Shown: positions 14,671-23,922 of the stretch, piece by piece
How positions within the stretch are numbered: the first letter of the stretch is position 1
Layout of the letters: each line of letters starts with the position of its first letter
Assembly: GCF_030824435.1 (NCBI RefSeq)
Contig: NZ_JAVBXS010000098.1
Coordinates: forward strand, 1 to 55,613
Length of the DNA: 55,613 nucleotides
DNA from: Rheinheimera sp.
Lineage (GTDB): Bacteria; Pseudomonadota; Gammaproteobacteria; Enterobacterales; Alteromonadaceae
Reading direction: 5' to 3'
Translations under genes and position numbers: made by a program
Notes under the pieces: generated by a model
What the model saw: the letters and a program-made list of their open reading frames with translations, nothing else
Told to the model about the DNA's origin: nothing
Databases searched by the model: none

Positions 14671-17121
14671 TTATCTGAGCCAGGCGCTGGCTTCTTTGGC
14701 CGTTACCGCTTTGGCAAACCAATAACCCTGACCTGCATCACAACCAAGCTCTGACAATAATTTACGTTGCAGGCTGGTTTCAATACCTTCGGCAATGACT
14801 GTTAAAGAAAGGGTTTTTGCCAGGGTAATAATGGTATTCACTACGGCATTTTCCTGAATACGCGGCCTGATGCCGGCAATAAAACTGCGATCAATTTTTA
14901 ACACATCCAATTGAAATTCATGCAGATAACTTAAGCTGGAATAACCGGTACCAAAGTCGTCCAGCAACACTTTGACACCTGCAGCCCTCAAACAATCAAT
15001 ACTCATTTTGGCCTGTGCCATTTTATCTATCAGGGCACTTTCGGTAATTTCAATCGCAAGATAAAAAGGCTGCACCCCGGCCTGCGCCAGCAATTCCAAC
15101 ACCTTGTGCGAAAAATCTGCGTCGGAGAAACTTCGGCCAGACACATTGACACTGACATAAAACGGGTTGGCAAAATCCAGCCGCCATGTCGCCAGTTGTT
15201 TTACAGCAGCCTGCACCACATACAAATCAATCTGCTGCAGCAAACCCAGCTCTTCTGCCAGCGGAATAAACTCATTTGGAAGCACCAAACCCCGCTCCGG
15301 ATGTTGCCAGCGGATCAGCGCTTCAAAACCCAGGGTATGTTCCTGCGCCAAATCAACAATAGGCTGATAATACAAATCAAACTGATTTGTTTGCAGTGCC
15401 GCTTTTAATTCAGTCTCCAGCTGATAATGTGCTGTAGTAGCAAAATCCATTTCTGCACAAAACTGCCGCCAAATGCCCCTGCCATCTTGTTTTGCCTGAT
15501 ACATGGCAATATCGGCACGACGGATCAGCTCATCCGTATCCAACTGTTCGGTACTGACATCCGCAAAGGCAATACCAATACTGGTAGAGGTTTGCAGCTG
15601 GTGTTGTTTTAACACAAAAGGCTGCTGTAGCTGCGCCGCTATACGTTCCGCCACTTCAACCACATCAGCAAAACTCTGTACATCTTCCAGCAGAATGGCA
15701 AATTCATCACCACCAAGCCGCGCCAGCGTATCATTTTGTCGTAAACAACTTTTCAGGGCATGGCCAACCGCAATCAGAAATTCATCACCAACCTGATGCC
15801 CCAGGGTATCGTTGACCATCTTAAAACGGTCAAGATCCAGATACAGCACGGCCACCACTTTGTCCGGATACCTTAAACGGCGTTTAAAGGCATGATTAAC
15901 CCTATCAATAAACAAAATACGGTTTGGCAAATTTGTCAGGGCGTCGTGCAGCGCCTGATGACGCAACCTTTGTTGTACAAAAGCACGTTCCAGCGCACTG
16001 GAAATATGCTGGGATACAAAGGTCAGCAGCTCTAAATCTTTTTGATCATAACTGATGCCAGGATCGTAACTTTGCACCACCACCACACCACGCACTGCAT
16101 CACCGGAGCGAAACGGCACACCAAGCCAGCTTTCAGGTGCAGAGCCATAAGCTGTCACTTCTTTGGTGCGGTCAAATTCTTCCAGCATAGCCCTGTCCGC
16201 CAGTAAAGGCCGGTCGGTACGAAATACATAACCTGTTAAGCTGTTTGCCAGAATTTCTTTGGGGTAGATGGTGGTAGGGCTGATATGTTCAGTGGTATCA
16301 ACAAAATACGGAAAATGCAGCACTTCATCCTGATCATCAAACAAAGCGATATAAAAGTTTGGTGCGTAAATTAATGAGCTGACGTTCTGATGGATATGCT
16401 GATAAAAGGCGGTAAAATCTTCGGCGTCATAACTTAATGAAGCAATATTAAACAAAGCTTTTTGGACCAGCTCGGCGTATTCCAGTTTTTGAATCGACTG
16501 TTCAAGTGCCGCCAGATCCTGCAACTTACGCAACCTGCTACTGAGAATAGAAGCAACATGCTCCAGAATTTGCTGATGTTGTTCATTAAAAAAATGCGCG
16601 TCCCACTGTTCACAGTCAATAACAGCTAATAATTCGCCTTGTTCTAATACCGGCACCGCCAGTTCAGACAAACGTTCAGACACGTCTTGCAAATAATACT
16701 GGCATTGCCGGGTATCGGGCACCAGAATGCTTGTCTGTTGCACCGCGCACTGGCCGACAATACCCTGGCCATAAGCCAGCATCCCCAGCCCCTGATGATG
16801 AGGTAAATCTCTAGACCCTACAGCAGCCACCCGCTGCAGGCTTTGTGTTGCAACGTCAGCGACAAAAATAGCGCAATCTTCGAAACCAAGTGCAGCCGCC
16901 ACTTGTTGTGCAACAAAAGGGTAAATCTCAGCTGGCGTCATCAGCTCATTAAGCTGCAACGCCAGTTTATTAATAAGGTGCAAAATTGATGTTTCGCGTT
17001 GCAACTGCAGATTTTGTTGCAACAATTCGTGGCGCTGCTGCAACAACTCTTTATTTTGTTGCTGCAGCTGGCACACATCAGCAGGCTGTGCTGCAGACCA
17101 TTCATCCATAGCGCAACTCAT
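14671..17121 (-). CDS. GAF-GAF-GGDEF-EAL cyclic-di-GMP turnover protein
   Basis: The 816-residue soluble protein begins with a Gln-rich coiled coil (about 17-50). Two GAF-like domains (about 55-195 and 220-385) follow, then a diguanylate cyclase domain (about 390-555) and an EAL phosphodiesterase domain (about 560-815). The cyclase motif GGDEF is intact at 470-474, and an RQND inhibitory site lies five residues before it. The EAL motif is intact at 600-602 with the other catalytic elements NVSGRSF, EITES, DDFGTG, LKIDRSF and EGIE. Both activities are therefore possible, with the GAF domains as the likely input. It starts 124 bases after the end of the cfa operon and may have its own promoter in the inverted-repeat region. 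Confidence 0.93.
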   Translation of the reverse strand: MSCAMDEWSAAQPADVCQLQQQNKELLQQRHELLQQNLQLQRETSILHLINKLALQLNELMTPAEIYPFVAQQVAAALGFEDCAIFVADVATQSLQRVAAVGSRDLPHHQGLGMLAYGQGIVGQCAVQQTSILVPDTRQCQYYLQDVSERLSELAVPVLEQGELLAVIDCEQWDAHFFNEQHQQILEHVASILSSRLRKLQDLAALEQSIQKLEYAELVQKALFNIASLSYDAEDFTAFYQHIHQNVSSLIYAPNFYIALFDDQDEVLHFPYFVDTTEHISPTTIYPKEILANSLTGYVFRTDRPLLADRAMLEEFDRTKEVTAYGSAPESWLGVPFRSGDAVRGVVVVQSYDPGISYDQKDLELLTFVSQHISSALERAFVQQRLRHQALHDALTNLPNRILFIDRVNHAFKRRLRYPDKVVAVLYLDLDRFKMVNDTLGHQVGDEFLIAVGHALKSCLRQNDTLARLGGDEFAILLEDVQSFADVVEVAERIAAQLQQPFVLKQHQLQTSTSIGIAFADVSTEQLDTDELIRRADIAMYQAKQDGRGIWRQFCAEMDFATTAHYQLETELKAALQTNQFDLYYQPIVDLAQEHTLGFEALIRWQHPERGLVLPNEFIPLAEELGLLQQIDLYVVQAAVKQLATWRLDFANPFYVSVNVSGRSFSDADFSHKVLELLAQAGVQPFYLAIEITESALIDKMAQAKMSIDCLRAAGVKVLLDDFGTGYSSLSYLHEFQLDVLKIDRSFIAGIRPRIQENAVVNTIITLAKTLSLTVIAEGIETSLQRKLLSELGCDAGQGYWFAKAVTAKEASAWLR

Positions 17122-17172
17122 CGCGCTTTATCCATAACACAGATGCCATATTGCAGAACCACCTGTTCTGGT

Positions 17173-17232
17173 CCATTGGACCGAACTATTTGTTTAGCTT
17201 AAGAAAGTTATAACATAGTTCGGCTCCAATGG
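17173..17232. repeat. 17/18-bp inverted repeat around an AT-rich spacer
   Basis: The left arm 17173-17189 and right arm 17215-17232 are reverse complements apart from one extra base in the right arm. The 25-base spacer is AT-rich and contains TTATAAC. It lies between the end of the cfa-like gene and the start of the GGDEF/EAL gene. It could be an operator pair, a 3' hairpin of the cfa transcript or a small mobile remnant. There is no T-tract, so a simple terminator is less likely. Confidence 0.7.
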
Positions 17233-17245
17233 TAAATCAGCCGCC

Positions 17246-18490
17246 TCAAAGTGGTTGGCGGTGACCGGGTTTACTCAGCACCAGATGCACAGCACTGGTG
17301 GCGCGTTCTAAAAAACCACCTTCACAATAACAAAGGTAAAAATGCCAGAGCCGCACAAAACGATCGTCATAACCCAATTGATGCACAGCATCACGCGCCG
17401 CCATAAAATTACTGCACCAATCCGCTAAAGTGCGGGCGTAATCCAGACCAATATCCTGCACCTGACGTATTACCAGATCAGTGTGTTGCGCTGCGGCCTG
17501 AGTCATCCGGAACATGGAAGGCAGGCAACCGCCCGGGAACACAAACTTTTTAATAAAATCCACTTCCCGCCGGTAAAATTCATAACGTTGATCGGCAATG
17601 GTAATAGCCTGCAATAACATCAGACCGTCAGGTTTAAGCAGGCTTGAACACTTGGCAAAATAACCGTCCAGATATTCATGGCCAACGGCTTCAATCATTT
17701 CAATAGACACTAGTTTGTCGTACTGGCCACTAAGCTCTCTGTAATCTTGAAATAACAGGGTTATTTGCTGCTCTAACCCAGCAGCTTCGATTTGCGCTTT
17801 GGCATAATCATGTTGTTCCCGCGAAATGGTGGTGGTGGTCACCTTGCAGCCATAATTACGGGCGGCAAAAATGGCCAGACCGCCCCAGCCAGTGCCAATC
17901 TCCATCAGATGGTCACCAGATTTCAGCTGCAACTTGTCGCAAATTAATCTGAGTTTGTGTTGTTGCGCTTCTGCCAGGCTGCTGTCAGGCGTTGGATAAA
18001 CCGCACTTGAATACATCATACTGGCGTCTAAAAACAGCTGATACATGCTGTTACCCAAGTCATAGTGGGCGGAAATATTCTTTTTTGATTGTGCTTTTGA
18101 GTTACGGTTACGCCAGTTTAATAATTTCAGCGCTGGTTTACTTAAACGCGCCCAGCCAGACTCAAGTTCATCTAACAACGCCATATTGCGGGCAAAAATC
18201 TGCACCAGCGCTGTCAGGTTATCAGTGCGCCAATGGCCTTCGATATAAGATTCTCCAGCACCAACCGAGCCTCCGAGCACCAGTTTTTGATAAAAGGCAG
18301 GGTCGACCACAGTTAAAGTAATACGCAAGTCGGCATGGGGATCACCCAGCAGTTGTTTGTCATGGTCTTCTACCAGTTCAATACAACCATGTTGTAATTT
18401 GGCCAGATAGCCCAGCATCAGATTACGGCAAATTTTGTCCAGTACGCCCAGATTGGCCAGCACCGACGAGTCTGCAAGTGAAAATGTCAT
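17246..18490 (-). CDS. Cyclopropane-fatty-acid synthase-like SAM methyltransferase
   Basis: The 414-residue protein matches the CFA synthase family, with the SAM-binding loop LMEIGTGWGGLAIFAA near residue 190, SIEMIEAVGHEY, and the catalytic-cysteine region YCEGGF near the C terminus. Such enzymes add a methylene or methyl group from SAM to unsaturated phospholipid acyl chains at the membrane. It is the last gene of the operon and overlaps the DUF1365 stop by ATGA. Paralogs in COG2907-DUF1365-Cfa sets can act on modified lipids other than cyclopropanes, so I give no symbol. Confidence 0.92.
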   Translation of the reverse strand: MTFSLADSSVLANLGVLDKICRNLMLGYLAKLQHGCIELVEDHDKQLLGDPHADLRITLTVVDPAFYQKLVLGGSVGAGESYIEGHWRTDNLTALVQIFARNMALLDELESGWARLSKPALKLLNWRNRNSKAQSKKNISAHYDLGNSMYQLFLDASMMYSSAVYPTPDSSLAEAQQHKLRLICDKLQLKSGDHLMEIGTGWGGLAIFAARNYGCKVTTTTISREQHDYAKAQIEAAGLEQQITLLFQDYRELSGQYDKLVSIEMIEAVGHEYLDGYFAKCSSLLKPDGLMLLQAITIADQRYEFYRREVDFIKKFVFPGGCLPSMFRMTQAAAQHTDLVIRQVQDIGLDYARTLADWCSNFMAARDAVHQLGYDDRFVRLWHFYLCYCEGGFLERATSAVHLVLSKPGHRQPL

Positions 18491-19236
18491 AATGAAGGAT
18501 CCTTAGGCTGCTGATGGCCATACACAGGTAATCTTTTAAACAAAAGTTTCAGCGCATGCCAATAAATTCGAAACACCACTTGTACGTTTTGCCAGGGCGT
18601 GTGGATCAGCTGCTGTTGCAGACTGGGTTTATTAAGTTCATGCCGGGTTAAATCCAGCCAGGCACTAAAAACACGCTCACCAAGCCGCCAGTTGCTGATG
18701 CTAAGCTGCAGCTCAGTTTCTGGCTGGTTGATTTTCCATTGATATTGCATATCCAGTGGATTAAAAGGCGACACATGGAAATTTTTATCATGGCAAAACT
18801 CAGTGTCACCTTCAGTCTGAAGCGGTATTAAATAATAATGTCGTTCATTCCAGGGTGTATTACTTACTTCTGCTAGTAAATACAAAGGCTTACCATCAGC
18901 ATAACAGTAGTACAAATTGAGTGGACTGAAAAATACGTTGAAGTTTGCCAGCGGGCTTAATAAAAAAACCAGCTGCACTTCTTTGTCGCCCCCCAACGCT
19001 TTCACTTTGTCTTTCACCGCCTGCGCCAAATCATCTGCACCTTGCAGGTAATCCTTGCGTCTGAAACTCCAGGCGGCAAACTTTTCCAAACTTAAATAAC
19101 GACCAAAAGACGAAAGAGAGTCAAGCTGTTGTAAATCAAGCCATAAATAACTGACGTCATAACCAAAATCATGAACTTCAGGCAAATACCTTTTGTGACC
19201 AACCCGGCCTTTATACCAGGCATGCCCTGCTTGCAT
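18487..19236 (-). CDS. DUF1365 protein
   Basis: The 249-residue protein is a full-length DUF1365 (COG3496) member, with YLWLDLQQLD near residue 30, LSPLANFNVFFSPLNLYYCY, EVSNTPWNERHYY, FHVSPFNPLD and the C-terminal RIYWHALKL. The catalytic role is unknown. The gene almost always sits beside a COG2907 flavoprotein and a CFA-synthase homolog, as here. It shares a base with the previous stop codon (TGATG) and overlaps the next start by four bases, so the three are translationally coupled. Confidence 0.92.
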   Translation of the reverse strand: MQAGHAWYKGRVGHKRYLPEVHDFGYDVSYLWLDLQQLDSLSSFGRYLSLEKFAAWSFRRKDYLQGADDLAQAVKDKVKALGGDKEVQLVFLLSPLANFNVFFSPLNLYYCYADGKPLYLLAEVSNTPWNERHYYLIPLQTEGDTEFCHDKNFHVSPFNPLDMQYQWKINQPETELQLSISNWRLGERVFSAWLDLTRHELNKPSLQQQLIHTPWQNVQVVFRIYWHALKLLFKRLPVYGHQQPKDPSL

Positions 19237-20489
19237 CAGAACCTGACTCCAAGCAAAGCGGCCACATCAACAGCACTTCTGACGCCATCTTCATGAAAAC
19301 CGTTATACCAATAAGCACCACAAAAATAGCTGCGGTTGTGGCCGTTTATTTCTGCACGGCGTTGTTGTGACAACATCGTAAAATGGTTATACACCGGATG
19401 GGCATAACAAAAAGTGCGTAATATGGCTTGTGGCTTAATACGATGATCTGCATTGAGTGAAACAACAAAAGTGTGTTCACTTTCAATGCCTTGCAGTATG
19501 TTCATATTGTAACTTAAGGTTGCTTTCTGGTTGGAACTATCATCCAGTAAATAATTCCAGGAAGCCCAGGCAGCACGGCGTTTGGGCAAAATACTGTGAT
19601 CAGTATGTAGCGTCACCTGATTGTCCTGATAGGCAATACCACCGAGAATTTGTTGCTCTGCCAGGCTGGCATCGCCTAACAGTTTTAGCGCCTGATCGCT
19701 GTGACAAGCAAACACCACCTGATCAAATTGTTCAATACGACCATCCGGCAATTCAACTTCTACATAATCAGCAAAACGGCGCACGGCTTTGACAGGGCTT
19801 TGTAAGCGAATGCCTTCATCACCACATTGTTTTAACATGGCCTCAACGTAACTGCGTGAGCCACCTTTGATCACAGCCCACTGCGGCCGGTCTGTGATAT
19901 TCAGCAAACCATGGTTTTTAAAAAACTGCAGGAAAAACCGCAGCGGAAAGTCGGGCATTTCAGTCAGGCCGGAAGACCAGATAGCAGCGCCCATCGGCAA
20001 CAAATAATGATCACGCAGCTCTTTGCCAAAACCATGTTTTTGCAAAAAGTCGTCCATTTTCAGGTCAAGATCGGTATGGTCTTCGAGCAGCATTTGTTTT
20101 GCGGTGTTATTAAAACGCACTATTTGCCACAACATACGCCAGAACGATGGTCGCAGCAGATTGCGTTTTTGCGCAAACAAACTCCAGAGGGTATTGCCAT
20201 TGTATTCCAGATTGGCTGACGGTTTTTTTACGGAAAAACTCATTTCAGTTGGTTGAAATGGCACCTTGAGTTCGGTCAAAAAGCGGTTAAACAACGGATA
20301 AGTCCAGTTATTAAACACAATAAAACCTGTGTCTATGGCGTAATTTTTCCCGGCAACTTCAACATCAACAGTGGCTGTGTGGCCACCCAGATAATCATTG
20401 GCTTCAAATAAGGTCACCTGGTGTTCACGCTTTAATAAATACCAGCTCATCATTCCGGCGATACCACCGCCTATTACTGCAATACGCAT
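19236..20489 (-). CDS. COG2907 FAD/NAD(P)-binding amine-oxidase-like protein
   Basis: The N terminus has a Rossmann dinucleotide loop (IAVIGGGIAGM) and the flavin amine oxidase motif ANDYLGGHT. Other family marks are DTGFIVFNNWTYP, MGAAIWSS and VIKGGSRSYVEAM. These flavoproteins (417 residues here) accompany DUF1365 and CFA-like enzymes and are thought to oxidise or desaturate lipid acyl chains; this is inference. I chose the ATG at 20489 because AAGGA lies seven bases upstream; an ATG five codons earlier lacks a ribosome site. Confidence 0.9.
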   Translation of the reverse strand: MRIAVIGGGIAGMMSWYLLKREHQVTLFEANDYLGGHTATVDVEVAGKNYAIDTGFIVFNNWTYPLFNRFLTELKVPFQPTEMSFSVKKPSANLEYNGNTLWSLFAQKRNLLRPSFWRMLWQIVRFNNTAKQMLLEDHTDLDLKMDDFLQKHGFGKELRDHYLLPMGAAIWSSGLTEMPDFPLRFFLQFFKNHGLLNITDRPQWAVIKGGSRSYVEAMLKQCGDEGIRLQSPVKAVRRFADYVEVELPDGRIEQFDQVVFACHSDQALKLLGDASLAEQQILGGIAYQDNQVTLHTDHSILPKRRAAWASWNYLLDDSSNQKATLSYNMNILQGIESEHTFVVSLNADHRIKPQAILRTFCYAHPVYNHFTMLSQQRRAEINGHNRSYFCGAYWYNGFHEDGVRSAVDVAALLGVRF

Positions 20490-20513
20490 GTTTTGTTCCT
20501 TCATCTTTACTGC

Positions 20514-20984
20514 TTAATCCTGCGCCATTTTCTGTTTAACTTTTGTGGTCAGCCAACCCAGCAACGGAATATGCCGGTACACCATATCAGTCAGGTCGTA
20601 ATAATCACGATGGTAAATAATGCGGCCGTCGCTATGCCATTGCAGTGCGGTACAACCTTGCACTTCAATGTTTTTGCCAGCGGCAATAGCAGGATGGCTT
20701 AAGGTCATAGTCCAGCTGAGAAATCCCTGATTGCCTTGTACAGCCTGTTGCAAAGGCAAAAAATGACAGCTACTGAGCCTTGCATAAGCATGGGCAAAAT
20801 ACTGCTCCAGGGACGCTAAACCGTGAATTTCATGTACAGGGTCAATAAACTGCACATCCGGGTGATAAATAGCGGCCAGGCTTTTGAGGTTGTTGGCAGA
20901 CAAAGCATTATAAAACTCAACGAACTGCTGTAAATTTGCTGAACTTTGCATAATTCCGCTGTCTTTTTCCGTATGTTCACTCAC
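20514..20984 (-). CDS. NTF2/SnoaL-like fold protein
   Basis: The 156-residue protein has the NTF2-like cone pattern: an N-terminal helix (FVEFYNALSANN), then YHPDVQFIDPVHEIHG, and a C-terminal YYDLTDMVY strand. Such domains bind small hydrophobic ligands or act as isomerases or hydratases. No catalytic role can be read here. The GTG start at 20984 has GGAG nine bases upstream and overlaps the phrB stop by eight bases; an ATG at 20951 is the alternative. Its place between photolyase and the flavoprotein suggests a part in the same stress or lipid process. Confidence 0.85.
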   Translation of the reverse strand: MSEHTEKDSGIMQSSANLQQFVEFYNALSANNLKSLAAIYHPDVQFIDPVHEIHGLASLEQYFAHAYARLSSCHFLPLQQAVQGNQGFLSWTMTLSHPAIAAGKNIEVQGCTALQWHSDGRIIYHRDYYDLTDMVYRHIPLLGWLTTKVKQKMAQD

Positions 20985-22407
20985 TTGTGATTGCTCCGGC
21001 TGGTTTTTTTACCGCATTAAAGATTTCAAGGGTTCTGAGCCTGGCTTTGGCGTGGTCCACCACGGGCTTGGCATAATGCACCGACATAGGCAGAGGGTGT
21101 GGCCAATGGATCTGCTTATTGCTTAAAGCCGCCAGCTCAGGCACAAATAAACGGATAAAATCGCCATTGGGATCAAATCTTTCACTTTGGGTGACAGGGT
21201 TAAAAATACGGAAATAAGGTGCAGCATCTGTACCTGTTGAAGCGGCCCACTGCCAGCCGCCGTTATTGGCAGCAAAATCGCCGTCAATCAGCTTTGACAT
21301 AAAATAGGCTTCGCCCCAGCGCCAGTCGATTTGTAAATCTTTCACCAGAAAACTGGCCACTATCATGCGTAATCTGTTGTGCATCCAGCCGGTTTGATTC
21401 AGCTGGCGCATCGCAGCATCAACAATAGGGTAGCCGGTTTGGCCTTGACACCAGGCATCAAACCATTTGCTGTTATTGCCCCAGACAATAGCGGCAGTAT
21501 CCTGCTGAAAGGGTTGGTGTTTAATCAGCTTTGGATAAGCCACCAGAATATGTTTGTAAAACTCCCGCCAAATCAGCTCGCTGAGCCACACAGCTGCGCC
21601 AGAGCCTTCCTGATAACATTGCTCACCAGATTCAAGCTGCAACCTTGCTATCGCTTGTTGCGCTGATATGACACCTATTGCTAAATAGGCCGACAAACCC
21701 GAAGTACCTGGTTTTGCGGGGAAATCACGTTGTTGTTGATAGTCCAACACTCTTTCACGGCAAAAAGAGCGCAACATCTCCAGCACTTGTTGCTCAGCAA
21801 CCGGATAAGCAGCAGAGCTGTTATCCCCATCCAGCATGGGTGTCACGCCATCTGGCAGTTTTAAGCTCACAGTGTTCAGGCTTTTCGGTTTTGGCAAACA
21901 ATAACAACCAGTGCTTTGTAGTTTTTGCAGCCAGGTCTTTTTAAAGGGCGTAAACACCTTATACACATCACCGGTTTTACTCAGCACTGTACCCGGCGCA
22001 AAACGGCATTGGTTGTCGATAAAATGGCAAGGCACCCCAAGTTCTGCCAGCGCCGCAGTGACCGCTTTGTCTCTTTGTTGCTCACGCACTTCATATTCAG
22101 TCTGGGCAAATAAAGCCTGAGCGCCTTGCTTCGCCAAAGCAACAAGCTGGGCTGAACATTGCTGATAACTGCCGCCTTCCAGCGCCAACAACTGCCCGCC
22201 GACAGCGGCAAGCTCCTGTTGCATGGCCTGAACACGACGGCGCAGCAAATCTTGTTTTATCGGCGCCATCTGGTGTTGCAACCAGGTCGTTGGTGTGGCA
22301 ATAAAAACAGCAACCACAGGCAAACCTAACTCCAAGGCAGCATGCAAAGCGGCATTGTCATAACAGCGCAAGTCGTTACGTAACCATACAATAGAAAAAC
22401 CGGCCAT
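20977..22407 (-). CDS. phrB: Deoxyribodipyrimidine photolyase (class I CPD)
   Basis: Photolyase uses FAD and light to split cyclobutane pyrimidine dimers. The 476-residue protein has the N-terminal antenna domain (FSIVWLRNDLR) and the C-terminal FAD domain with TGYPIVDAAMRQL, MHNRLRM, the WGEAYF motif, GGWQWAASTGTD and FNPVTQSERFDP. The ATG at 22407 is chosen because the family N terminus begins here and the ybgA stop is four bases upstream. The ybgA-phrB order is as in E. coli; the downstream lipid genes are not. Confidence 0.96.
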   Translation of the reverse strand: MAGFSIVWLRNDLRCYDNAALHAALELGLPVVAVFIATPTTWLQHQMAPIKQDLLRRRVQAMQQELAAVGGQLLALEGGSYQQCSAQLVALAKQGAQALFAQTEYEVREQQRDKAVTAALAELGVPCHFIDNQCRFAPGTVLSKTGDVYKVFTPFKKTWLQKLQSTGCYCLPKPKSLNTVSLKLPDGVTPMLDGDNSSAAYPVAEQQVLEMLRSFCRERVLDYQQQRDFPAKPGTSGLSAYLAIGVISAQQAIARLQLESGEQCYQEGSGAAVWLSELIWREFYKHILVAYPKLIKHQPFQQDTAAIVWGNNSKWFDAWCQGQTGYPIVDAAMRQLNQTGWMHNRLRMIVASFLVKDLQIDWRWGEAYFMSKLIDGDFAANNGGWQWAASTGTDAAPYFRIFNPVTQSERFDPNGDFIRLFVPELAALSNKQIHWPHPLPMSVHYAKPVVDHAKARLRTLEIFNAVKKPAGAITSE

Positions 22408-22411
22408 AACG

Positions 22412-23353
22412 TTACGCCCGCAAACCAAGTTCAGCCGGGAAAGGCTGCAGATAACGTTGAGCCGCCACATAGGCTTGTGGGTGCTGCCGCAGATGGTGTT
22501 TTAATAAAGTTAAAGGTGCCAGCAAAGGGGCATGCCCTACCCTGTATTGGTGAATAAGCTGCAACAATTCTTGCTTGGCATCCGCCGACAGCATTTGTTT
22601 AAAAAAGCCTTGCAGGTGCATCAGAACATTGGCTTGTTGTTTGCGGGTTGCCTGTTGTTTTAATGCACGGCTGAAATCAAGCAGATAACGCATCGCAAGC
22701 TCCTCAGGCGCAAATAACTTTGCGTTGGCCACCAAACGGCCCAGTTCACGATAAGCTGTGGGATGATGCGCCATGATCAAAAACTTAAACTGGCTATGAA
22801 AAGCCACCAGCTTGCCGATGCTAAAACCATCTTTCATCTGCTGCTGCCAGGCATGTATCGCATAAACCCTGGTGATAAAGTTTTCTTTAAGCTCTTCATC
22901 CAATAAACGGCCATCTTCCTCCACCGGCAACCATGGATAGGTTTGCATCAACTGTCTGGTAAAAAGTCCGGTGGCAATTTTGCCTTGTAACTCGCCTTTT
23001 TCATTGACCAGACGCACACGTTCCATGCCGCAACTGGGTGATTTGGCGCAGACAATATAACCGGACAACTGATGTAAAGACGGCAGTTTGGCTTCAGTAA
23101 AAGCCAGCATTTTGTCGGTAAAATCAATGCTACTGTCTTTGTTATTGACCAGCCGGATGTCGCCAACATCGGTTTTCATCAGCCGGATGGCTGGCCTTGG
23201 TGTGCCCATGCCAATCGCAAGCTCAGGACACACAGGCACATAAGAAACAAAGTTTCGTAAAATATCACTACAAAAAGCCGAGTTTTTATGACCGCCGTCA
23301 TAACGGACTTTTTCGCCTATCACACAAGCGCTGATGCCAATTTGAATAGTCAT
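22412..23353 (-). CDS. ybgA: YbgA-like DUF523-DUF1722 protein
   Basis: The first half (about residues 1-155) is DUF523, starting IGISACVIGEKVRYDGGHK and containing AKSPSCGMERV, both with conserved cysteines. The second half (about 185-300) is DUF1722 (LVAFHSQFKFLIMAHHPTAYRELG). This fusion is the YbgA family; the function is unknown. It is the first gene of the operon with phrB, and a candidate ECF-type promoter lies 33-62 bases before its ATG. Confidence 0.92.
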   Translation of the reverse strand: MTIQIGISACVIGEKVRYDGGHKNSAFCSDILRNFVSYVPVCPELAIGMGTPRPAIRLMKTDVGDIRLVNNKDSSIDFTDKMLAFTEAKLPSLHQLSGYIVCAKSPSCGMERVRLVNEKGELQGKIATGLFTRQLMQTYPWLPVEEDGRLLDEELKENFITRVYAIHAWQQQMKDGFSIGKLVAFHSQFKFLIMAHHPTAYRELGRLVANAKLFAPEELAMRYLLDFSRALKQQATRKQQANVLMHLQGFFKQMLSADAKQELLQLIHQYRVGHAPLLAPLTLLKHHLRQHPQAYVAAQRYLQPFPAELGLRA

Positions 23354-23385
23354 GGTTATTTCTGAATTACTGTCGCGGATACAAT

Positions 23386-23415
23386 GCTTTACAGTTTAAC
23401 CATCGAATTGGATCA
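23386..23415 (-). promoter_or_regulatory. Candidate ECF11 (RpoE/ChrR-type) promoter of the ybgA-cfa operon
   Basis: On the minus strand TGATCC (23415-23410) and TAAAG (23391-23387) are separated by 18 bases and lie just upstream of ybgA. The singlet-oxygen sigma factor RpoE of Rhodobacter sphaeroides recognises TGATCC and TAAGA at similar spacing, and its regulon includes photolyase and CFA-like genes. The match is by eye. No rpoE-chrR pair is in this window. Confidence 0.55.
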
Positions 23416-23536
23416 GTGTAATTTTAAATTTATGGCAAAAATCAGCAAGAAAGCTTCAGCAACAACAAAGCAGGTTGCATTGCGCAGAGAAATGAGGAAA
23501 CGTCATTCGGGGGCTAAGGCCAGCTTAAACTCCAAT

Positions 23537-23571
23537 AAAAAAGGAGCATCCCTGAGGTTTGCTCCTTTTTT
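23537..23571. terminator. Bidirectional terminator after ihfA
   Basis: Six A residues plus GGAGCA (23537-23548) pair with TGCTCC plus six T residues (23560-23571) around an 11-base loop. On the minus strand it lies about 55 bases beyond the ihfA stop and ends the pheST-ihfA transcript. Confidence 0.85.
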
Positions 23572-23625
23572 CACCCTACAGACATTATTGATTCATGCCT
23601 GCAGTGCCATCAGCATTAACACTGA

Positions 23626-23922
23626 TTATTTTTTAGCGGTACCTACTTCAACCCGGCTTTTTAACTTCTGGCCTGGGCGGAAAGTCACCACACAACGGGC
23701 GGAAATTGGAATATCTTCACCGGTTTTTGGGTTACGGCCAGGGCGCTGATTTTTGACTCGCAGGTCAAAATTACCAAACCCCGACAGCTTCACCTGGTCG
23801 CCAGCTTCCAAAGCCACTCGGATTTCTTCAAAAAAAGCTTCGACTATCATTTTGGCATCGCGTTTGCTGATGCCAAATTTGGTAAATAAACGTTCTGCTA
23901 AATCGGCTTTGGTAAGCGCCAT
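23626..23922 (-). CDS. ihfA: Integration host factor subunit alpha
   Basis: The 98-residue protein is nearly identical to E. coli IhfA in the core: [30 protein letters not shown], the DNA-intercalating loop [17 protein letters not shown], and [17 protein letters not shown] bends DNA and supports recombination, replication and sigma-54 promoters. The ATG at 23922 has GAGGG seven bases upstream. It starts two bases after the pheT stop, the same pheST-ihfA linkage as in enterobacteria. Confidence 0.98.

Follow-up and report, generated by a model that had tools for sequence, protein, structure and literature searches.

We analyzed a 55,613-nucleotide stretch of DNA from Rheinheimera sp. (GCF_030824435.1, NZ_JAVBXS010000098.1, positions 1-55,613), referred to below as the window, and found a minus-strand run of six genes that probably forms an operon of the sigmaE-ChrR (ECF11) regulon acting against photo-oxidative stress. 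This reading is based on gene families, conservation of the promoter, the presence and co-occurrence of chrR, and synteny. Enzyme activities and regulation come from papers on other species, and from them we infer function in Rheinheimera. The operon type is already known, in that a homologous promoter and operon from Shewanella have been published (PMC4336711). The operon and its candidate promoter comprise:

23388..23415, minus strand: candidate sigmaE-ChrR-type promoter (TGATCC at 23415-23410, 16-base spacer, TGTAAA at 23393-23388)
22412..23353, minus strand: rudS-like gene (annotated 'ybgA'), a TudS (2-thiouracil desulfurase) domain fused to DUF1722 (PF04463, 126.3 bits; PF08349, 135.6 bits)
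20977..22407, minus strand: phrB, deoxyribodipyrimidine photolyase (PF03441, PF00875; NF007955 equivalog, 578.9 bits, cut-off 506)
20514..20984, minus strand: SnoaL/NTF2-like gene, candidate enzyme of furan fatty acid metabolism (PF12680, 65.1 bits)
19236..20489, minus strand: ufaD-like gene, flavin-dependent desaturase (PF01593; its COG2907 label is from the initial annotation)
18487..19236, minus strand: ufaO-like gene, DUF1365 protein, proposed O2-using furan-forming enzyme (PF07103, 228.1 bits)
17246..18490, minus strand: ufaM-like gene, S-adenosylmethionine-dependent fatty acyl methyltransferase of the CMAS family (PF02353, 292.8 bits)

Gene content of the operon

The six genes are tightly packed and co-directional. 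With the starts that we chose from the list of open reading frames (ORFs) in the window, the distances between them are +4, -8, +24, -1 and -4, reproducing from the coordinates the layout given in the initial annotation. The kinds of gene named there also agree with Pfam, which gives the order TudS plus DUF1722, photolyase, SnoaL_2, flavin amine oxidase, DUF1365 and CMAS. For phrB we took the start at 22407 (the ORF caller uses an earlier in-frame ATG at 22470), for the SnoaL-like gene a GTG at 20984 (a later ATG at 20951 is an alternative), and for the ufaD-like gene 20489 (the ORF caller gives 20504).

The first gene is not a plain ybgA. DUF1722 is present, as the name implied, but it is fused to TudS, the arrangement found in RudS, whereas E. 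coli-type YbgA has DUF1722 only (PMC11417400). The window protein has C10, C42, C108, E44, R53, S105 and S107 at the spacings named for RudS_KT, and these seven positions are kept across 109 aligned locus sequences, the window included, with one gap at C10 and with the S107 position occupied by S in 88 and T in 21. The Cys, Glu, Arg and Ser positions are reported to be needed for removal of 4-thiouridine from tRNA, and it has already been noted that light operons can contain both RudS and photolyase genes (PMC11417400). The window gene thus resembles published RudS in its TudS-DUF1722 architecture, three cysteines, catalytic Glu, Arg and Ser, and location in a light operon with photolyase; as a difference, the position of Asn26 in RudS_KT is Asp in 104 of the 109 sequences of the window family. 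We conclude from its sequence that the first gene is of the RudS type, a predicted tRNA 4-thiouridine eraser, an assignment that is new for this operon.

A conserved candidate promoter element upstream of rudS

The element upstream of rudS closely matches sigmaE-ChrR promoters when it is read with a 16-base spacer. The initial annotation described TGATCC-N18-TAAAG 33-62 bases before the first ATG, and we found these letters in place (TGATCC at 23415-23410, TAAAG at 23391-23387, ATG at 23353). The site and its assignment to the RpoE/ChrR type are credible; the -10 element is better taken as TGTAAA after N16 than as TAAAG after N18. Published promoters from Shewanella (PMC4336711) and Pseudomonas syringae (PMC5507510) have TGATCC, 16 bases and CGTA. 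In this frame the window has TGATCC-N16-TGTAAA, nearly the sigmaE-ChrR form, with the -35 element and the spacer length exact.

The motif as first written was not specific. TGATCC-N14..20-TAAR occurred twice in the window, compared to an expectation of 0.97, and 28 of 100 shuffled sequences had as many. A scan of the 3.92-Mb genome for sites of this kind, which the initial annotation had proposed, yielded 103 copies of TGATCC-N15..19-TAAR, so the motif alone proves nothing. A backward control of the genome count (1 and 1) was uninformative because the reversed pattern contains CTAG, which is rare in such genomes.

Comparison among related loci argues for the site. From 20 other genomes of the genus with DUF1365 we fetched 19 loci, plus one locus from another genus taken in by the same fetch; 18 of the genus loci hold rudS. 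All 18 have TGATCC-N16-TGTAAA or TGATCC-N16-TGTAAT, located 26-70 bases ahead of the start called for rudS, and the hexamers are the same as those of the window at 11-12 of 12 bases, compared to 7-13 of 16 in the spacer. We also looked upstream of the first genes of 78 loci from the order (81 loci, including the window, minus L090, L148 and L151, in which the gene is too close to the locus end). The motif was present 31 times at N16 and 3 times in total at other spacers from 8 to 24, and a comparison set of 655 other ORFs had 9 sites at N16 and 5 at other spacings. The 31 N16 sites (14 in the genus set, window included, and 17 in other genera, two of which, L102 and L104, have an unlabelled ORF as first gene) are not 31 independent events, as the loci are related. 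We believe that the upstream site is credible because of its conservation and fixed 16-base spacing, and its frame, TGATCC-N16-TGTAAA, is a new point with comparative support from these sequences.

A hairpin of the intrinsic-terminator type separates the operon from the gene upstream, at 23928-23626, which we take from our own reading of its sequence to be IhfA-like:

23537..23571, strand not assigned: intrinsic-terminator-type hairpin (17-nt arms, 88% complementary, 1-nt loop; arms start with A6 and end with T6)

A 121-amino-acid ORF on the opposite strand (23384-23749, plus strand) spans promoter and terminator, has no Pfam match, and is probably not a gene. Separately, in phrB of 26 loci of the order (for example L091, L114 and L149), TGATCC-N16-CGTAA/T often encodes the stretch [F/Y]DPx[G/A]xFIR of the photolyase. 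This coding stretch mimics a sigmaE promoter and is a trap for promoter scans.

The genome encodes an rpoE-chrR pair

The initial annotation had called for a search of the genome for rpoE-chrR, and we found a pair of this type. The ChrR protein scored 182.4 bits with TIGR02451 (cut-off 124.5), was above the cut-off for Cupin_7 and slightly below that for zf-HC2, and carries H-X3-C-X2-C. The start of chrR is overlapped by the end of an ORF with sigma-70 regions 2 and 4, that is, an extracytoplasmic function (ECF)-type sigma gene. These features support placing the pair in the sigmaE-ChrR type, with putative membership in the ECF11 group. The pair is preceded by AGATCT-N16-CGTAT.

DUF1365 and ChrR tend to occur together. 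Among 197 genomes of the order, 86 had both, 26 had DUF1365 alone, 1 had ChrR alone and 84 had neither, ChrR being counted when over the profile cut-off (Fisher p 6e-31, uncorrected for kinship). Within the genus, DUF1365 was present in 21 of 22 genomes and ChrR over the cut-off in 21 of 22; the one genome without both is only 91% complete.

Several observations weigh against sigmaE-ChrR control of a furan fatty acid operon. The -10 element of the window, TGTAAA, differs from the consensus CGTA. Our automatic first-gene rule found no N16 site in 47 of the 78 loci, a count to be read knowing that the rule often chose an internal gene, including in five genus loci whose site does precede rudS. 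A site of the [T/A]GATC[C/T]-N16-CGTA type was upstream of rpoE-chrR in only 6 of 21 genus loci, including that of the window genome (AGATCT). Wider-phylum homologues near rpoE-chrR share only 26-32% identity with the window UfaO, and the alignments cover part of its length. Lastly, 26 of the 112 genomes with DUF1365 had no ChrR over the cut-off, indicating that other regulators can run ufa-type genes.

One such regulator would be a light-sensing MerR/LitR (adenosyl-B12) repressor, acting as the main control of the operon in place of sigmaE-ChrR. The genomes without ChrR fit this possibility, as do the MerR gene that separates rudS from phrB in several further genera (for example, in Shewanella ANA-3 and Aeromonas popoffii) and the mention of LitR control of the Pseudomonas PhrB-LitR-RudS operon (PMC11417400). 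However, there is no MerR gene between rudS and ufaM in the window (LitR was sought in the operon only), the spacing of the conserved element ahead of rudS is of the ECF kind, and a simple scan for sigma70-type promoters saw no site upstream of rudS. We consider control mainly by LitR to be unlikely.

The genome has additional sites of the consensus form. We inspected five of the six listed TGATCC-N16-CGTAA sites, and these precede a DPRP photolyase gene (L071:5294-5320, plus strand), a DUF2805-SDR pair (L068:6292-6266, minus strand; SDR, short-chain dehydrogenase/reductase), folE2 (L067:5590-5616, plus strand; 206 bases off), a DUF4397 gene (L066:6925-6899, minus strand) and a Band 7/HflK-like gene. 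The genes behind the L066, L067, L068 and L071 sites are possible further sigmaE-ChrR targets in this genome. A photolyase-related gene, phr, is on the Shewanella RpoE2 list (PMC4336711), and folE2 is on the R. sphaeroides RpoE list (PMC7074977).

Predicted furan fatty acid genes

The last three genes of the operon are of the UfaD, UfaO and UfaM types. In Rhodobacter, the methyltransferase UfaM, the desaturase UfaD and the DUF1365 protein UfaO, which uses O2, make methylated furan fatty acids (PMC7380195). The window has one gene of each type in the order D-O-M, and apart from the ufaO-like gene nothing in the genome matches DUF1365. The window UfaD is 40.5-42.1% identical to four UfaD-like proteins encoded near rpoE-chrR in the wider phylum (L310, L311, L317 and L337). 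The layout in the wider-phylum loci L307, L310 and L318, ChrR-RpoE / UfaD-UfaO-(ORF of ~430 amino acids)-DUF3833-SDR, roughly fits the order and sizes of RSP1093-RSP1087 (402, 186 and 245 amino acids for the last three). These comparisons support the prediction that the three genes encode furan fatty acid enzymes, and agree with the suggestion in the initial annotation that UV repair is coupled to a membrane-lipid modification, possibly methylated or furan fatty acids.

It is very unlikely that the CMAS gene encodes an ordinary cyclopropane synthase, with cyclopropane rather than furan fatty acids as product: the best solved relative of the protein is the cyclopropane synthase 6bqc, and papers on Vibrio cholerae and Shewanella name a light-regulon gene cfa, but the protein was under all three matched curated cut-offs (Cfa NF008686, 299.5 versus 400; Brucella-type cyclopropane fatty acid synthase, 277.9 versus 600; CfaB, 243.2 versus 650) and in 79 of 81 loci of the order the gene has a UfaO-type neighbour in the same orientation.

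A conserved SnoaL-like component of furan fatty acid loci

The SnoaL-like gene travels with furan fatty acid genes. Among loci with enough flanking sequence, it was near ufa genes in 74 of 76 from the order and in 75 of 77 from a set of named loci, which strengthens the earlier proposal that the NTF2-like gene is a candidate new component. In 42 of the loci that keep it, there was no RudS or PhrB nearby. Eight residues (Y40, D48, Y62, W91, G110, D127, D130 and P140) are invariant in 62 sequences, and the first seven of these are at 99% in 153 SnoaL-like sequences. The AlphaFold model (mean pLDDT, predicted local distance difference test, 88.8) has a predicted NTF2-like fold of the ketosteroid isomerase (KSI) and limonene epoxide hydrolase kind.

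The protein differs from the known enzymes of this fold. Identity to the compared KSI, limonene epoxide hydrolase and SnoaL-fold structures was 8-22%. The catalytic residues of KSI are Tyr14, Asp38 and Asp99; in a weak alignment (E 0.61) that stops before Asp99, Asp38 pairs with D48 and Tyr14 with F24, beside Y25. Limonene epoxide hydrolase uses an Arg-Asp-Asp triad; in the alignment with 5aif, the Asp of RDYxD is kept (D127), and neither the Arg nor the Asp from the earlier strand is. Other catalytic residues of the two enzymes were not seen at the aligned places.

Based on its synteny and sequence conservation, we conclude that the SnoaL-like protein is a conserved component of furan fatty acid loci, which is a new point, and most likely a candidate acid-base enzyme that would work on a precursor or product of furan fatty acid metabolism. 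Tentatively, it may be a fourth, unrecognised furan fatty acid enzyme, a KSI-fold acid-base catalyst, in one of two forms that we put forward jointly. It could help the oxygenated diene that UfaO leaves to close its ring or to isomerise a double bond, or it could, with the SDR, process the product whose ring singlet oxygen has opened. If the second form were true, the protein could make or remove a lipid signal that results in turnover of ChrR, a point still open in the ECF11 field. Weighing against this, R. sphaeroides makes furan fatty acid by UfaM, UfaD and UfaO, and the description of RSP1087-1091 names no SnoaL-like gene.

A second possibility, likewise tentative, is that the SnoaL-like protein works with the SDR on electrophilic oxidation products of furan fatty acids, in detoxification or recycling, and not in furan making. 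The next same-strand gene after SnoaL was SDR-sized in 53 of 77 cases in the order set, and in the named set a profile identified it as an SDR for 66 of the 77 SnoaL genes. In L114 this gene is an SDR by Pfam and matches 59 ORFs in the loci of the order. Furthermore, R. sphaeroides can make furan fatty acid without RSP1087 (PMC7380195), which is called an SDR in PMC7074977. In the window genome, however, the matching SDR is apart, on another contig, and SnoaL stays beside ufaD.

It is improbable that the gene is a passenger with no role in lipid metabolism. It was within 7 kb in only 15 of 59 loci in a wider-phylum sample, and R. sphaeroides makes do with the three Ufa enzymes, but the synteny described above, including the loci with no RudS or PhrB near, and the three Asp at 99% argue against this.

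Within the start of the SnoaL-like gene there is a sigma70-like site (11 of 12 bases; 20907-20934, minus strand) that could be a secondary ufa promoter or a coding coincidence.

Proposed mechanism

We propose that singlet oxygen would lead to turnover of ChrR and free sigmaE, which would then start transcription at TGATCC-N16-TGTAAA. RudS would strip UVA (ultraviolet A)-absorbing 4-thiouridine from tRNA, PhrB would repair pyrimidine dimers, and UfaM, UfaD and UfaO would convert cis-vaccenoyl chains of phospholipids stepwise into methylated furan fatty acid, a singlet oxygen scavenger. The SnoaL-like protein would be an acid-base catalyst on a precursor or product of this pathway. The operon would thus protect three targets: tRNA, DNA and membrane lipids. 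Because ChrR turnover in Rhodobacter depends on furan fatty acid genes (PMC6852236), the operon would also feed back on its own sigma factor.

If so, one likely singlet-oxygen promoter serves an eraser of a tRNA modification, a DNA photolyase and the synthesis of furan fatty acids. In many gammaproteobacterial loci the SnoaL-like gene accompanies the furan fatty acid genes. The reductant of UfaO and the route from an oxidant in the membrane to ChrR in the cytoplasm are stated to be open questions (PMC7380195, PMC6852236), and a further conserved enzyme would offer a way into both.

Comparison with known operons and gene order in other loci

The window operon resembles the S. oneidensis RpoE2-ChrR operon SO_3386-SO_3374, which has ybgA first and contains phrB and cfa. 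The SO_3386 promoter is TGATCC-N16-CGTAAT, and plasmid-borne rpoE2 raised SO_3386 transcription (PMC4336711). In the Shewanella ANA-3 locus (L179) there are extra genes: MerR, SDR, DUF2878, chalcone isomerase-like and DUF3833. Relatives of all of these except MerR are present at other places in the window genome, whereas the window operon is without MerR and has TGTAAA at -10. PSPTO_1121-1114 is a homologous operon with the consensus TGATCC-N16-CGTA (PMC5507510). The R. sphaeroides genes RSP1091-1087 and RSP2144 (PMC7380195) share the UfaD, UfaO and UfaM types, under RpoE-ChrR control there and by our prediction here. R. sphaeroides ufaM (RSP2144) is apart and, by locus tag, adjoins a photolyase gene, whereas the window ufaM is in the operon. 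The window operon has no transporter gene like RSP1089, and no SnoaL-like gene is described for the R. sphaeroides operon.

Many other loci of the order have the arrangement RpoE-ChrR-RudS-(MerR)-PhrB-SnoaL-SDR-UfaD-UfaO-UfaM-DUF2878-chalcone isomerase-like-DUF3833, with some parts missing or rearranged in some (labels of the last four genes by Pfam on L114, and of MerR by Pfam on L105 and L119). Profile-labelled named loci with this order are from Shewanella, Aeromonas, Idiomarina-type bacteria and Pseudoalteromonas; Enterobacter and Vibrio sp. Y2-5 have the part from SnoaL to DUF3833, without photolyase. In the window genome, an SDR-DUF2878-chalcone isomerase-like cluster is on contig C6 (its SDR scored 284.8 bits with the operon SDR profile) and DUF3833 is on contig C59, so these parts are elsewhere in the genome and not missing. 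The cluster spans L266:707-2494 (plus strand) on a 3.1-kb contig apart from the operon, and a relative in the genus has a similar SDR-led trio (L268:6175-7893).

Downstream of the operon

The operon is followed by a gene that we list as context:

14671..17121, minus strand: GAF-GAF-GGDEF-EAL protein (Pfam)

An imperfect inverted repeat of ~17 bases was seen by eye at 17140-17230, in the interval between ufaM and this gene; the repeat tool reports none. Among the 19 genus loci, L078 and L080 have little or no sequence beyond ufaM or ufaO, and the other 17 have a same-strand ORF of 756-845 amino acids after ufaM, by comparison of length and strand.

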